From Gammaproteobacteria bacterium (GTDB lineage Bacteria; Pseudomonadota; Gammaproteobacteria; Ga0077536), in NCBI GenBank assembly GCA_020849475.1, contig JADLGE010000004.1:1-64000 (forward strand): a DNA stretch of 64,000 nt. Reading direction: 5' to 3'. Below, in pieces: positions 5,256 through 56,447 of this stretch (positions are counted from its first letter, which is position 1; the number at the start of each line of letters is the position of its first letter). A program made the translations under genes and the position numbers. A model generated the notes under the pieces. The model was given only the letters and a program-made list of their open reading frames with translations, did no database searches and was not told the DNA's origin.

Positions 5256-5851
5256 TCGGGCGCATCACTGGCGTGCTGCTTGAAATGCGTCCGCCGCAGC
5301 TCATCGTCGATTGCAATGGCGTCGGCTATGAAATCGAAGCACCCATGACCACCATCTGGGCGCTGCCGGAAATCAACCAGAAAGTTTCGCTCTACACCCA
5401 TCTCACGGTGCGCGAAGACGCGCACCTGCTCTATGGCTTCGTCACCGAGAGCGAACGCGCGCTGTTCCGCAGCCTGCTGCGCGTCAACGGCGTCGGCACC
5501 AAGATGGCGCTCGTGATTCTGTCGGGCATGGATGCCAATGCCTTCGCCGAATGTGTGCATGCCGGCGACACCGCGCGCCTGACCGCCCTGCCCGGCATCG
5601 GCAAGAAGACCGCCGAGCGGCTGATCATCGAAATGCGCGACCGCGTGGAGCGCGTCGACAGCGCGGTCACCCTGCCATCCAAAGTGGCCAATCCGCGCCT
5701 GGTCGATGCCGCCGCCGACGCCATCGCCGGCCTCATCGCGCTCGGCTACAAACCCCACGAGGCCAGCCGCTTCGTGCACGGTCTCGATACCGAAGGCATG
5801 AAAAGCGAAGAGATCATCCGCGTGGTGCTGAAGGGCCTGGCGCCAAAATGA
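5252..5851 (+). CDS. ruvA: Holliday junction branch migration protein RuvA
   Basis: The 199-residue protein binds the four-way junction and loads RuvB. The N-terminal OB domain begins MIGRITGVLLEMRPPQLIVD. Two helix-hairpin-helix motifs follow (LLRVNGVGTKMAL and LPGIGKKTAERLI). The C-terminal third, the RuvB-interacting domain, is present after an acid-poor linker. It overlaps ruvC by 4 bases and is followed by ruvB after 36 bases. Confidence 0.96.
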   Translation: MIGRITGVLLEMRPPQLIVDCNGVGYEIEAPMTTIWALPEINQKVSLYTHLTVREDAHLLYGFVTESERALFRSLLRVNGVGTKMALVILSGMDANAFAECVHAGDTARLTALPGIGKKTAERLIIEMRDRVERVDSAVTLPSKVANPRLVDAAADAIAGLIALGYKPHEASRFVHGLDTEGMKSEEIIRVVLKGLAPK

Positions 5852-5887
5852 GCGCCCCACGCGACATTCGCCTGAGCGGGGCCGCCC

Positions 5888-6931
5888 ATGTCTGATGGTG
5901 ACCGCCTGATCACGGCGTCTTTGAATTCCGACGATGTACAGCTCGAGAATTCGATACGGCCCAAGCTGCTGTCCGATTACATCGGCCAACCGGCTGTGCA
6001 TGAGCAGATGGAGATCTTCATCGGCGCCGCCCGCCAGCGCGGCGAGCAGCTCGATCATGTGCTGATCTTCGGGCCGCCCGGACTCGGCAAGACCACGCTC
6101 GCGCACATCATCGCCAATGAACTCGGCGTCAATCTGCGCCAGACCTCGGGCCCGGTGCTGGAACGCGCCGGCGATCTGGCCGCGCTCCTGACCAACCTCG
6201 AGCCGCGTGACGTGCTGTTCATCGACGAGATTCATCGCCTGTCGCCGGTGGTCGAGGAGATCCTCTATCCCGCGATGGAGGACTACCAGCTCGACATCAT
6301 GATCGGCGAAGGCCCGGCGGCGCGCGCCATCAAGCTCGACCTGCCGAAGTTCACGCTGGTCGGCGCCACCACCCGCGCGGGGCTGTTGACCTCACCGCTG
6401 CGCGACCGTTTCGGTATCGTGCAGCGCCTCGAGTTCTATTCCGAACAGGATCTCGCACGCATCGTCACGCGCGCCGCGCGCATTCTCGACGTGCCGATAG
6501 AAGCCGGCGGCGCCCACGAGCTCGCGCGCCGATCGCGCGGCACGCCGCGTATCGCCAATCGCCTGTTGCGCAGGGCCCGTGATTACGCCCAGGTTAAGGC
6601 CGACGGCGTACTTTCCACCGAGGTTGCATCACGGGCTCTCGATTTGTTGAACGTCGACATGCATGGCTTCGATGTCATGGACAGGAAACTGTTGCTCGCC
6701 ATCATGCAGAAGTTTGATGGTGGACCGGTAGGCGTCGACAGCCTGGCGGCTGCCATCAGTGAAGAGCGCGGCACCATTGAAGACGTCATCGAGCCCTATC
6801 TCATCCAGCAGGGCTTCTTGATGCGCACCGCGCGCGGGCGTGTCGCGACGCGCTCTGCCTGGCTGCACTTCGGCCTGGAAATGCCGCAAGCAGTGCGCGC
6901 CATGCCCGATCTGTTCGAAGGCGGCGAGTAG
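5888..6931 (+). CDS. ruvB: Holliday junction branch migration ATPase RuvB
   Basis: The 347-residue AAA+ motor drives branch migration. Walker A is [14 protein letters not shown], Walker B is [10 protein letters not shown], sensor 1 lies in [20 protein letters not shown] with its arginine finger region, and a winged-helix C-terminal domain ends the protein. Length matches the family. The next gene, ybgC, starts 5 bases after the stop, so the recombination genes probably read into the Tol-Pal operon. Confidence 0.97.
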
Positions 6932-8024: not shown

Positions 8025-8483
8025 ATGGCAGGCGGTGTATCACAGGGCAATTCGCGCCGCGGGCGCAAACGCGTGATGGCGGAAATCAACGTCGTGCCGT
8101 ACATCGACGTGACGCTGGTGCTTTTGATCATCTTCATGATCACCGCGCCGCTGGTGACCCAGAGCGTGCAGGTTGAACTGCCGCAGGCGCCGTCGCAGGT
8201 GGTCGATTCGAGCGACAACGAACCAGTCAACGTGACGGTCGACCGTGAAGGGCAGATCTACGTCGACATCGGTGAAAACCCTGAGCAGCCGGTGGACGAG
8301 GCGACCCTGGTGACGCGGGTCTCGGCCATCATGAAATACAAGCCTGAGACCCAGGTCTATGTCGGCGGTGACAACGGCGCCGATTATGGCAACGTGGTGC
8401 GCGCCCTGACCGCGCTGACCAGCGCCGGCGTGCAGAGCGTCGGCCTGCGCACCGATCCACCCAGCGCAAAGGCGCAACATTGA
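8025..8483 (+). CDS. tolR: Tol-Pal energy-transducing protein TolR
   Basis: The 152-residue protein has a short cytoplasmic basic N-terminus, a single transmembrane helix (about 26-44) with the proton-pathway aspartate in VPYIDVTLVLLIIFMITAP, and a periplasmic domain that binds peptidoglycan. The ATG at 8025 lies 10 bases after the tolQ stop; a much longer reading through tolQ in this frame is only an overlap artefact. ExbD/TolR family membership is clear. Confidence 0.94.
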   Translation: MAGGVSQGNSRRGRKRVMAEINVVPYIDVTLVLLIIFMITAPLVTQSVQVELPQAPSQVVDSSDNEPVNVTVDREGQIYVDIGENPEQPVDEATLVTRVSAIMKYKPETQVYVGGDNGADYGNVVRALTALTSAGVQSVGLRTDPPSAKAQH

Positions 8484-8511
8484 GCGACATGGGCGCCCGG
8501 ATAGCTTTGTC

Positions 8512-9540
8512 ATGATGCCTCGCAAGTCCATAGTGCTGTCGGTGCTGTTGCACAGCCTGCTGCTCGGCGTGCTGTTGTTCGGCGGCTTCAATTTCTGCAG
8601 CGAGCAGGCCTTGAACCCGCAGCCGTCGGGCCCGGTGATGAAGGCGACCATGGTCGACAGCAAGGCCGTCGATGAGCAGGTCAAGAAGTTGAAAGCCGCC
8701 GACGCGCAAGCGCAGGCCGAGAAAGACCGGCAGGTCAAAGAGGCGGAGCAGAAGCGCGAGGCCGAAGAGCAGCGCGTCAAGGAACTGAAGGCCGAACAGC
8801 AGCGCTTGAAGCAGGAGCAGGAACAGCAACGCAAAGAGGCCGAGCAGGCCAGGCAGGAAGCGGCCGAGGCCAAGCACAAGGTCGAAGAGCAGAAGCGCGA
8901 GCTTGCCGAGCAGCAGAAGAAGAGGGACGAGCAGAAGAAGCTCGAAGACCAGAAGCTGAAGGAAAAGAAGAAGGCCGACGAAAAGAAAAAGGCCGAAGAG
9001 CAGAAGAAAGCCGAAGCCGAGCAGAAGAAGAAGGACGCCGCCGAGGCCGAGAAGAAGAAAGCCGACGCTGAAAAGAAGAAGGCAGCCGAGGCCGAGAAGA
9101 AGAAGCAGGAAGCCGCCGAGCAGAAGAAGAAAGACGAGGCCGCCAGGAAGAAGGCTGCCGAGGAAGCGGCCGAAGCCGAGCGCAAGAAGGCGCTGGCCGA
9201 TGAAATCGCCGCCACCGAGGCGGCCGAGGCCGAGGCGGCGCAGGCCAGCGCCGATGCGTCCGAGATCGACACCTACGCGTCGGCCATCACCCGGCGCATC
9301 AAACAGTCGTGGACGGTCTTGCCGGGCACCGAAGATCTGGTCTGCACTCTTAGGGTCACTATAATTCCCGGCGGCGAGATCGGTGGCGTCGAAATCATCA
9401 AATCAAGCGGTGATCCGACCTTTGACCGTCAGGCCGAAAACGCTGTGCGCAAGGCCGCGCCTTTGCCCTTTCCGACCGAGCCACGCTTGATGAATCGTTT
9501 GCGTAAATTCACCCTGGAGTTCGATCCCAGGGATCTTTGA
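8512..9540 (+). CDS. tolA: Cell envelope integrity protein TolA
   Basis: The 342-residue protein bridges the inner membrane and Pal/TolB. A transmembrane helix (about 8-25) carries the TolA-type SVLLHSLLLGVLL segment. Residues about 50-250 form a very long Lys/Glu/Ala/Gln-rich coiled coil. The last 90 residues form the globular TolA_C domain (ITRRIKQSW, KSSGDPTFDRQAENAV), which contacts TolB. The repetitive coil is normal for TolA and is codon-restricted (GAG/AAG/GCC), which creates long false reading frames on the other strand. Confidence 0.94.
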   Translation: MMPRKSIVLSVLLHSLLLGVLLFGGFNFCSEQALNPQPSGPVMKATMVDSKAVDEQVKKLKAADAQAQAEKDRQVKEAEQKREAEEQRVKELKAEQQRLKQEQEQQRKEAEQARQEAAEAKHKVEEQKRELAEQQKKRDEQKKLEDQKLKEKKKADEKKKAEEQKKAEAEQKKKDAAEAEKKKADAEKKKAAEAEKKKQEAAEQKKKDEAARKKAAEEAAEAERKKALADEIAATEAAEAEAAQASADASEIDTYASAITRRIKQSWTVLPGTEDLVCTLRVTIIPGGEIGGVEIIKSSGDPTFDRQAENAVRKAAPLPFPTEPRLMNRLRKFTLEFDPRDL

Positions 9541-53084: not shown

Positions 53085-54173
53085 CTAGTTGGTCGGCGTG
53101 CCGCGTTGACGGTGCTGCGCCAGCGCCCAGGCCACGTGTTCGCGCACCAAGGCCGCGGGGTGTTCAGCGCGCGCCGCCAGCGCCGCCAGCACTTCGTCTG
53201 AGGTCGGCGCGTTGCCAAGACCGACCGCGATATTGCGCAGCCACTGGGCGTGGCTAATGCGCCGCAGCGGCGAACCGCGCGTGCGCAGTTCGAACTCCGC
53301 TTCGCTCCACGCGAACAGTTCGACGAGACTCGCGCTGTCCAGGCCATGGCGCGGTGCGAAGTCCGCGACCTGGGTTTTCGCCGCGTATCGGTTCCATGGA
53401 CACACCAGCTGGCAGTCATCACAGCCGAACACGCGATTGCCCATCGCGCTTCGAAATTCTTCCGGTATCGGCGCCGCGCTTTCGATGGTGAGATAAGAGA
53501 TGCAGCGCCGCGCATCGAGCCGATAGGGCGCGACGATGGCGGCGGTCGGGCACACCTCGATGCAGCGCGTGCAACTGCCGCAGTGATCTTTTTCTTCGTC
53601 GCTGCTCGGTGGCAGTTCGAGATCGGTATAGATCTCGCCGAGCAGGAACAGCGAACCATCGAAGCGCGACACGAGGTTGGTGTGTTTGCCTATCCAGCCC
53701 AGGCCGGCGTTGCGCGCCAGCGCGCGTTCCAGCACCGGTGCGCTGTCGCTGAACACGCGGTAGCCAAAAGCGCCGATGAGTGTCGCGAGCTTCCCGGCGA
53801 GCTGTTTCAGGCGTTGGCGTATGGTCTTGTGATAGTCACGGCCGAGCGCATAGCGCGCAATGTAGGCGGTGCCGGGTTCGGCAAGTCGCGCATCGGCCTC
53901 CGCCAGCGATTCCGGCAGGTAATTCATGCGCAGCGAGATCACCGACAGTGTGCCCGGCACCAGCGCCTCGGGCGCGGCGCGCAACAGCGCGCGTTCACGC
54001 ATGTAGCCCATGCTGCCGTGGTATTCGGCCGCCAGCCACGACGCCAGCTCGGCGTTGTCCTGCGCGAGATCGAGGCGCGCCACCGCGCAGCGTTGAAAGC
54101 CGAGTTCGGCTGACCAGCGCGCGAGTTCGGTCAGCGCCGCGGCCACCAGCGCGGCGTGCGCCTCACTCGCCAC
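53085..54173 (-). CDS. queG: Epoxyqueuosine reductase QueG
   Basis: The 362-residue cobalamin and iron-sulfur enzyme makes queuosine from epoxyqueuosine in tRNA. Visible are YHGSMGYMRERALLR near the N-terminus, the active-site region FSDSAPVLERALA, and two [4Fe-4S] motifs (CGSCTRCIEVCP and CDDCQLVCPWN). A C-terminal HEAT-like stretch ends the protein. It overlaps the upstream parA-like gene by 11 bases. queE and queC are at 12742-14110. Confidence 0.95.
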   Translation of the reverse strand: MASEAHAALVAAALTELARWSAELGFQRCAVARLDLAQDNAELASWLAAEYHGSMGYMRERALLRAAPEALVPGTLSVISLRMNYLPESLAEADARLAEPGTAYIARYALGRDYHKTIRQRLKQLAGKLATLIGAFGYRVFSDSAPVLERALARNAGLGWIGKHTNLVSRFDGSLFLLGEIYTDLELPPSSDEEKDHCGSCTRCIEVCPTAAIVAPYRLDARRCISYLTIESAAPIPEEFRSAMGNRVFGCDDCQLVCPWNRYAAKTQVADFAPRHGLDSASLVELFAWSEAEFELRTRGSPLRRISHAQWLRNIAVGLGNAPTSDEVLAALAARAEHPAALVREHVAWALAQHRQRGTPTN

Positions 54174-54936
54174 GCGCTTGCGGCTGACTCATGGCTTCCA
54201 GCCGTTCACTCAAGGCTGCCCACAGCGCGCGAAACGCGCGGCCGCCGGTGCTGTTGTCGGCATAGGCGTTGACCGGTGCGCGATGCTCGCCCATGCGTTC
54301 GATTTCGGCGGCATAGGGAATGTAGCTGCGCAGTAGATCGGGATGGCTGCCGGCGAATTCGATGATCAACTCGCGATGCAGGCTCTTGCGCCGGTCGACC
54401 ATCGAAAAAAACGGCAGGAGGCGCGCATGGCTGTTGGCCTGCGCGGCGCGGAAGGCGGCCAGCTGTTCGTAGGCGCGCAGCGACAGATGGGTCGGGATCA
54501 GCGGCACCAGCAGCACGTCGGCCATGTTGAGAATATTTTCCGAGACCGTCGACATGCTCGGCGCGCTGTCGACGAACACGAGATCGTAGTCGTCCGCCAG
54601 TTCACGCAGCATGCGTTTCAGGCGCAGCGTGCTCTTCTTGTAGTCACGCAGTTCGATATCGAGATTGCGGTAGGAGAAATCCGCCGGAATCAGGTCGAGG
54701 TTGGGGCAATCGGTGGCGCGGATCGCGCGTCCGAGTCCGCGCTTGTCTTCCAGCAGTGCCTGCGCGCCGCCTTCCACGCCGGGCCGCACGCGCAGGTAGA
54801 AACTCGCCGCGCCCTGCGCATCCAGGTCCCACAGCAGGACACGCAGACCGCTGCCGGCGGCGATATAGGCAAGGTTGACCGCACTGGCGGTCTTGCCGAC
54901 TCCGCCCTTGAGATTGTAGGTGGCGATGACTTTCAT
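54163..54936 (-). CDS. ParA/MinD-type positioning ATPase
   Basis: The 257-residue ATPase has the deviant Walker A motif NLKGGVGKTASAVN with the signature lysine, switch I LDAQGAASFYL and switch II/Walker B DYDLVFVDSAPSM. A C-terminal basic stretch could bind DNA non-specifically. No parB or parS site lies nearby, so chromosome partition is unlikely. Its ATG overlaps the stop of the upstream CHAD gene by 4 bases, which marks the CHAD protein as a probable partner or cargo adaptor. Confidence 0.9.
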   Translation of the reverse strand: MKVIATYNLKGGVGKTASAVNLAYIAAGSGLRVLLWDLDAQGAASFYLRVRPGVEGGAQALLEDKRGLGRAIRATDCPNLDLIPADFSYRNLDIELRDYKKSTLRLKRMLRELADDYDLVFVDSAPSMSTVSENILNMADVLLVPLIPTHLSLRAYEQLAAFRAAQANSHARLLPFFSMVDRRKSLHRELIIEFAGSHPDLLRSYIPYAAEIERMGEHRAPVNAYADNSTGGRAFRALWAALSERLEAMSQPQARGE

Positions 54937-56447
54937 GCTTCGGAGGTCTGGAACAGCGTGTCCAACGCCGCATGGTGACGGCTTCGATCGAAATCGGCCA
55001 GTGCCGTCAGCACCGCATCCACGTCGCTCGCCGCCAGCGCGGTACGCAGCAGCGCGCGTGCATGACCGAGCGCGCCGCGCAGCGCTTCATCGTCCGCCGC
55101 GCGCCGTCGCAGACTGCCTTTGAGCAAGGCCAGCTGCGCGTGGCGATCACAGATCTCGCCCATCATGGTCTGCAGACGTTTGAGCTCGGCCTGCAGATGG
55201 GCGATGCGTTGGCGCGGATACAGTGCGGCAAACGGTTCGATGAGATAACGCAGGCGTTTGCACTGTTTGCGCAGCTCATGCAGGGCGGCGGGCGAATAAT
55301 CGCTTTCAACGTCCGCGGCGTCGTGACGCACACGCGCCAGCACCGTGGCGATGGCGCGGTTGGCGACCGGCGTGATGCGCGGCGCCTCGCGTGCCGATCG
55401 TTGCAACAAGGCCAGCAGCGCCGCCGGCCAGTCGCGCCGCAGACGCCCATAGCGCGGGGTGGCCAGCACTTTGCAGAGGCGCCGCGCGTGGCGCTCGCGC
55501 TCGTGGCTCAGCAGCGCCGCGATGCGCGCGCGCTCATCGTCAGCGAGCGCCGCGTAGTCGGCACTCGGCGTCGCGATGGCGAGCAGCAGTACATCGATGT
55601 CGCGCAGCCGGCTGGTGGCCCGTGACAGCCAGCGGAACTCGGCGCTGAAGTGCTTTTCGAGCGGCTTGCCCGCGACGCGGCGAAAGCCGCGCAGCAGCGA
55701 GCGCGTGCGACGCATCGCCACCCTGAAATCGTGCAGTTCCTCTTCCGTTGGCGCCGCGCCATCGGGTTCCACGCAGGCGCAGGCGATGGCGTGCTGGTCG
55801 AGCACCACCTGCGCCAGCGCGACCGGCGCGCGCTCATGACGCGCGCGCGGTGGCCGCGCGGCACAGCGCTGTGCGGTATCGAGGTCGTCGAGCAGATGCT
55901 GGGCATCGTGTGCGAGGCGTCGCCACGGCAGGGACAAACGCGCGGCGAGGGCGGCGGTTTCGCGCTCGTAGCCGCGCTTCGGTTCGAGTTCCACCAGCAG
56001 CACACTGGCAGCGCCGCCGTCGGCGGCGCGATATTCCCGCGCCACCAGCGTGCATTCGATTTTTTCATCATCGTTCACCGCCGTGTGATGCAGGCCGCGC
56101 ACATGCCAGCGCTGCACCACTTCGAGCGTGGCGTCCCCCAGCAGCTTTTCGACGCGCGCCTGCAGATGCGGCGCGGCAATCGCATGCACCGATGACGGCG
56201 CGACCTTGGGCGCGGCACTGACGAGACGGGCTTGATGGCCGAAGCGGCGCAGACTCAAACGTGCGCCGTCGACGTGACGGCTCAAGCTGAGACACCATCC
56301 GTGGCGGCGCAGCGCCAGATCGGCGCTGTCGAGAATCAGCAGCTCGCCTTCATCATGGTGACTGCGGCCGCGTGGCAGGGCGGCCGCGACGGCGCGCGCA
56401 AAGTCCTGCACGGACAAGGCACTGACGAAGTGGAAGATGCCGGCCAT
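54933..56447 (-). CDS. CHAD-domain protein with degenerate CYTH-like N-terminus
   Basis: The 504-residue protein has a C-terminal CHAD domain (about 210-495) with the helix motifs LHDFRVAMRRTRSLLRGF and ALHELRKQCKRLRYLIE, rich in His, Arg and Lys. Other CHAD proteins bind polyphosphate granules. The N-terminal 170 residues recall the CYTH fold (LDSADLALRRHGWCLSLSR, LVELEPKRGYERE) but lack the N-terminal ExExK motif, so triphosphate catalysis is doubtful. It overlaps the parA-like gene. Confidence 0.88.
   Translation of the reverse strand: MAGIFHFVSALSVQDFARAVAAALPRGRSHHDEGELLILDSADLALRRHGWCLSLSRHVDGARLSLRRFGHQARLVSAAPKVAPSSVHAIAAPHLQARVEKLLGDATLEVVQRWHVRGLHHTAVNDDEKIECTLVAREYRAADGGAASVLLVELEPKRGYERETAALAARLSLPWRRLAHDAQHLLDDLDTAQRCAARPPRARHERAPVALAQVVLDQHAIACACVEPDGAAPTEEELHDFRVAMRRTRSLLRGFRRVAGKPLEKHFSAEFRWLSRATSRLRDIDVLLLAIATPSADYAALADDERARIAALLSHERERHARRLCKVLATPRYGRLRRDWPAALLALLQRSAREAPRITPVANRAIATVLARVRHDAADVESDYSPAALHELRKQCKRLRYLIEPFAALYPRQRIAHLQAELKRLQTMMGEICDRHAQLALLKGSLRRRAADDEALRGALGHARALLRTALAASDVDAVLTALADFDRSRHHAALDTLFQTSEA

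Follow-up and report, generated by a model that had tools for sequence, protein, structure and literature searches.

A conserved CHAD-ParA gene pair found in several bacterial phyla probably positions or manages polyphosphate granules

Results

A CHAD gene and a ParA gene overlap at the locus

The window, a stretch of 64,000 nucleotides from a gammaproteobacterial contig, carries a gene for a CHAD (polyphosphate-binding) protein followed by a gene for a ParA/Soj-type ATPase (Table 1). The stop codon of the first gene and the start codon of the second share the bases ATGA, and both reading frames lie at the coordinates given by the initial annotation, which had reported the overlap. A PhoH/PIN protein is encoded upstream of the pair and QueG downstream, and both genes of the pair are under purifying selection (dN/dS about 0.07 and 0.27). 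The source genome has no other CHAD gene; it also encodes PPK1 (two matches), PPK2, and PPX.

The initial annotation had also remarked that no parB or parS was visible. This holds: the ParA-CHAD neighborhood contains no parB, and no parS-like 16-bp site with three or fewer mismatches was found in the window. An ordinary gidA-gidB-parA-parB locus lies on a separate contig of the source genome; thus, the window ParA is not the chromosomal ParA. A chromosomal ParABS system at this locus is ruled out by the absence of parS-like sites from the window together with the placement of parAB beside gidAB on another contig.

Table 1. Features of the CHAD-ParA pair and their coordinates in the window
Feature	Coordinates	Strand	Remarks
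ParA/Soj-type ATPase gene	54163..54936	-	257 aa, ATG start; deviant Walker A KGGVGKT (K10, K15), D39 and D123 family-invariant
CHAD (polyphosphate-binding) protein gene	54933..56447	-	504 aa, ATG start; upstream member of the pair
ATGA shared by the CHAD stop and the ParA start	54933..54936	-	same exact 4-base overlap in 57 of 82 paired loci
N-terminal domain of the CHAD protein, residues 1-176	55920..56447	-	triphosphate-tunnel (CYTH/TTM) fold, without ExExK
Linker, about residues 177-200	55848..55919	-	low model confidence; probably flexible
CHAD domain, residues 234-442	55122..55748	-	polyphosphate-binding residues H239, R242, R246, R282, R400, Y401, K423

The CHAD protein retains the polyphosphate-binding site

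The CHAD domain is recognized by Pfam (7e-41), and the model of the whole protein (pLDDT 86) superimposes its CHAD fold on the crystal structure of CtCHAD with a Z score of 28.9 (6qv7). Mutation of His253, Arg256, Arg260, Arg296, Arg418, or Tyr419 of CtCHAD weakens polyphosphate binding (PMC6537752), and the window protein has all of the equivalent residues (H239, R242, R246, R282, R400, and Y401), which at least 53 of 54 family members share.

Over about 176 residues, the N-terminal domain adopts a tunnel fold that matches AtTTM3 with Z 14. The ExExK catalytic motif is missing from the window protein and is not a conserved feature of paired CHAD proteins, in agreement with the initial description of a CYTH-like N-terminus lacking catalytic residues. 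By comparison, about 60% of the set of unpaired full-length CHAD proteins keep ExExK. Paired CHAD proteins share a conserved set of their own (DTFDWRL, R106, K129, G159-Y160, G228, T278, W340, and F486); of these, the window protein retains K129, G159, Y160, T278, W340, and F486. It has lost G228 as well as R106, W44, and R45 and is thus a divergent member of the family.

The suggestion that the CYTH-like domain serves as an adaptor fared less well. Three intact paired CHAD proteins lack the domain, and three ParA orthologues are accompanied by a stand-alone CHAD protein of another subfamily (see below); thus, the domain is not a necessary adaptor. It also brings no basic tail. Partners of ParA/MinD ATPases usually have a positively charged, disordered N-terminus (PMC10241942), and we found no such N-terminus here: the first 15 residues carry a net charge of at least +2 in only 2 of 54 CHAD family members, with a median of -1, and we rejected a basic N-terminal activation tail. 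A basic C-terminal tail was rejected as well, because the C-terminal tail is short and of inconsistent charge.

The ParA protein is an intact Soj-like ATPase

The window ParA matches Pfam AAA_31 (4e-34), and its AlphaFold2 model (pLDDT 92.5) has Soj and ParA as best structural matches (TM-score about 0.9), with BcsQ and FlhG as weaker structural neighbors. The xKGGxxK[T/S] Walker A motif and the Walker A'/B aspartates (K10, K15, T16, D39, and D123) are kept in 32 of 32 family members. R183 of the window ParA presumably corresponds to Soj R189, and E211 to Soj R218. By this approximate match, the arginine at position 183 is found in 30 of 32 members of the family, and position 211, also matched only approximately, is mostly acidic or small. 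In Bacillus subtilis Soj, R189 and R218 are the residues of non-specific DNA binding (PMC3778016). A basic RRK-LHR cluster is strongly conserved in the family. Since the family has no C-terminal extension, a membrane-targeted, MinD-type ATPase was ruled out.

CHAD and ParA form a conserved operon module

We found a clean split between the ParA clade and other ParA proteins, first among 96 relatives and later across 274 genomes drawn from the class; in the class sample the clade scored at least 252 bits and every other ParA at most 146. A clearly separate orthologue was present in 44 of the 274 genomes, and in 31 of these 44 the gene immediately before it, in the same orientation, was a CHAD gene; no other gene order or strand occurred among the 31 adjacent pairs. 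CHAD genes were found in 38 of the 44 genomes with the orthologue versus 49 of the 230 others (odds ratio 23, p 2e-16). Conservation of the pairing, which the initial annotation had named as a check, is thus far above chance.

Scanning 84,980 genomes with a ParA profile and taking the best 80 loci, we recovered Gamma-, Beta-, and Alphaproteobacteria, Desulfobulbales, Actinomycetota, Chloroflexota, and Dormiibacterota, so that the pair, occurring in several phyla, is no peculiarity of one strain. Isolates among these best 80 loci include Prauserella, Fodinicola, Thalassobaculum, Nitrosomonas marina, Methylomonas lenta, and Oceanospirillum maris; Sedimenticola selenatireducens is another cultured organism with the pair. 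Among 103 ParA loci, 82 were paired, and 57 of these pairs had the exact 4-base overlap; 18 loci were unpaired, and 3 were ended by a contig end. These counts are not independent frequencies, because the 80 loci were picked for ParA similarity and a few genomes entered twice. Pairwise ParA and CHAD distances correlate (r 0.75, uncorrected for the shared descent of the genomes). An apparent CHAD-ParA fusion at two loci (L055 and L107) came from long open frames, and both are ordinary adjacent pairs.

We conclude that CHAD and ParA are a conserved operon module in which CHAD comes first. A chromosome or plasmid partition ATPase, or the remnant of one, that has a CHAD neighbor by chance is a very improbable account of the locus: although the nearest solved relatives are indeed Soj and ParA, parB and parS are missing nearby, gidAB-parAB is separate in the genome, and it is CHAD that is conserved as the partner instead.

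The partner is mostly kept when the pair is split

Sixteen genomes had a ParA orthologue at a contig end or without an adjacent CHAD gene, and in 14 of them a CHAD gene was found elsewhere. A profile of paired CHAD proteins gives 368-722 bits for its own members and at most 175 for CHAD proteins with an intact ExExK; 12 of the 14 distant CHAD proteins scored 380-654 bits. Because these distant proteins fall mostly within the range of the paired ones, we conclude that the partner is kept in trans. No CHAD was detected in four ParA genomes (G007, G060, G205, and G305), and a fifth (G194) gave only a short, degraded CHAD match. Conversely, a few genomes have a CHAD of the paired type without ParA, and in G032 (L021, 1295-1459) the ParA gene is a 54-codon remnant that follows CHAD and still overlaps its stop codon, which is a loss inside the same family.

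G236, G284, and G172 show a further association: their ParA orthologues lie downstream of a stand-alone CHAD protein that belongs to another CHAD subfamily and has no match to the paired-family profile (loci L149, L150, and L182; a SixA-like gene adjoins ParA in L182). At another locus (L146), a gene downstream of ParA (5398-6015) encodes a stand-alone CYTH protein whose ExExK-type motif is intact, and upstream of CHAD lies a 237-aa gene (8212-8925) that has no Pfam match.

Three relatives (L040, L041, and L042) have the order PhoH-permease-ParA-QueG, in which an opposite-strand PerM-like permease replaces CHAD; two of them have CHAD elsewhere, and the third (G007) has none. This retention of ParA among the same neighbors without an adjacent CHAD would suit mere co-expression, with the two proteins acting in separate phosphate or nucleoid steps and never in contact. 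We nevertheless regard that explanation as improbable: a fixed order and a 4-base overlap across phyla exceed loose co-expression, two different CHAD subfamilies are associated with the ATPase, and CHAD is kept in trans.

The ParA orthologue is linked to polyphosphate enzymes

PPK1 lies within 10 kb of the ParA orthologue in 6 of the 40 genomes holding both, against 0.23 expected if genes were placed at random (P 1.6e-7). In G194 (locus L131, 3671-6689), PPK1 is directly upstream of the orthologue with a gap of about 7 bases and no CHAD nearby, and ParA is there tied to the kinase itself. G301 and G191 (loci L143, 3815-12650, and L144) have PPK1-PPX-PPK2-SixA-CHAD-ParA islands, where SixA is a SixA-like histidine phosphatase; a weak bactofilin-like gene adjoins ParA in both. 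Of the best 80 database loci, 5 include PPK1, 3 include PPK2, and 12 include a SixA-like gene. PPK1 is missing from four ParA genomes, two of them incomplete. Separate CHAD-kinase clusters also exist: comparison of position lists for the class genomes showed CHAD genes that have no ParA beside them and lie a few kb from PPK1 in G145, G261, G116, G061, G206, G159, G190, and G300.

The main rival to granule positioning is ATP-dependent control, in which the ATPase would govern how the CHAD/polyphosphate machinery is assembled or how active it is (granule nucleation, granule number, or access of PPK and PPX) rather than where granules lie. This would resemble FlhG, which controls flagellar number, and BcsQ, which supports cellulose synthase. 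The linkage to enzymes of both synthesis and breakdown, the PPK1-ParA arrangement without CHAD, the lack of an arginine at the presumed second Soj DNA-binding position, the lack of a basic partner tail, and the weaker structural similarity to BcsQ and FlhG all favor control. Weighing against it are the strong conservation of R183, the presumed equivalent of the first DNA-binding arginine, and of the RRK-LHR cluster, a ParA C-terminus without a membrane-targeting tail, and the position of Soj and ParA as the closest folds. On balance we consider control rather unlikely.

Discussion

We identified an overlapping, conserved gene pair with a set gene order, intact ATPase motifs, an intact polyphosphate-binding site, and a linkage to polyphosphate enzymes. 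The association of CHAD with ParA is strongly supported by its conservation across phyla, translational coupling, the retained polyphosphate-binding residues, and the enzyme linkage. The initial annotation had gone further and proposed a system that spaces or inherits granules; of this, the association stands, and the function is suggested by analogy. With a ParA-type ATPase coupled to a polyphosphate-binding protein in several phyla, the unit probably serves to place or manage the polyphosphate granules of the cell, a task with no known energy-driven system. We think it reasonably likely that it is a ParA positioning system with the polyphosphate granule as cargo, and we give about an even chance to the broader reading of an ATP-driven granule partition system spread over several phyla, in which ParA has as its partner a CHAD protein whose tunnel domain lacks ExExK.

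In such a system, the CHAD protein would coat polyphosphate granules and act as cargo adaptor for its own ParA, while ATP-bound ParA dimers would occupy the nucleoid. Granule-bound CHAD protein would stimulate hydrolysis locally and release ParA, and the resulting ParA gradients could space the granules or hand them to daughter cells, in the way that carboxysomes are placed by McdA/McdB and chemoreceptor arrays by ParC. The nucleoid binding, stimulated release, and spacing or inheritance are modeled on established ParA biology. Several observations speak against positioning: the presumed equivalent of Soj R218 is not conserved, the partner has no basic tail, rare ParA genomes lack any CHAD and some CHAD genes lack ParA, four ParA genomes lack PPK1, and the window CHAD protein has lost family-conserved residues.

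Genes for ParA/MinD ATPases are often found near the genes of their own cargo (PMC10241942). The pair resembles McdA/McdB of carboxysomes and ParC/PpfA of chemoreceptors in that a single-domain ParA-type ATPase with a deviant Walker A motif is encoded beside a cargo protein, but here the partner is CHAD rather than McdB or a chemotaxis protein, the proposed cargo is polyphosphate, and the partner lacks a basic disordered N-terminus. We place CHAD-ParA among the ParA-type positioning systems, with polyphosphate as a new cargo, but, given that lack, only as a candidate member. Soj of the ParABS system (Soj/Spo0J) is closest to the window ParA in solved fold and in sequence, and the presumed equivalent of the first DNA-binding arginine is conserved, whereas ParB, parS, and conservation at the presumed second position are all missing here. 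Phosins and other CHAD proteins (CtCHAD, YgiF, and those of R. eutropha) share the CHAD fold (Z 29 to CtCHAD crystals, one of them polyphosphate-bound) and the key binding residues, but the window type forms a separate subfamily, in which the tunnel domain lacks ExExK and the gene is coupled to ParA. AlgP, which acts in granule spacing in Pseudomonas aeruginosa, is a histone-like tether (PMC9239181); our proposal would likewise tie polyphosphate granules to the nucleoid, but by an ATP-driven system.

A parA-CHAD neighborhood is already known in one genus. The folD-ppk1-parA-CHAD neighborhood of Acidithiobacillus has been published, and the parts of those reports that concern it describe the ParA as a partition protein and propose no granule role (PMC10892726, PMC6416229). 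It has the same gene neighbors as here and, compared by this published neighborhood alone, is probably the same CHAD-ParA module. In the literature on ParA with CHAD or phosin, we found no functional proposal for the pair, and the literature searched described neither a general module nor an associated ExExK-less CHAD subfamily.

According to a 2025 review, the ATP dependence of granule placement and inheritance is unknown, and AlgP is the sole known factor (PMC13052382). The CHAD-ParA module is a specific and widely conserved candidate for polyphosphate granule placement or inheritance, and it is present in cultured organisms. If the proposal is right, the ParA/MinD family would gain a new cargo, the ExExK-less tunnel-CHAD protein would gain a cellular role, and a bacterial storage granule would have an energy-driven positioning system.
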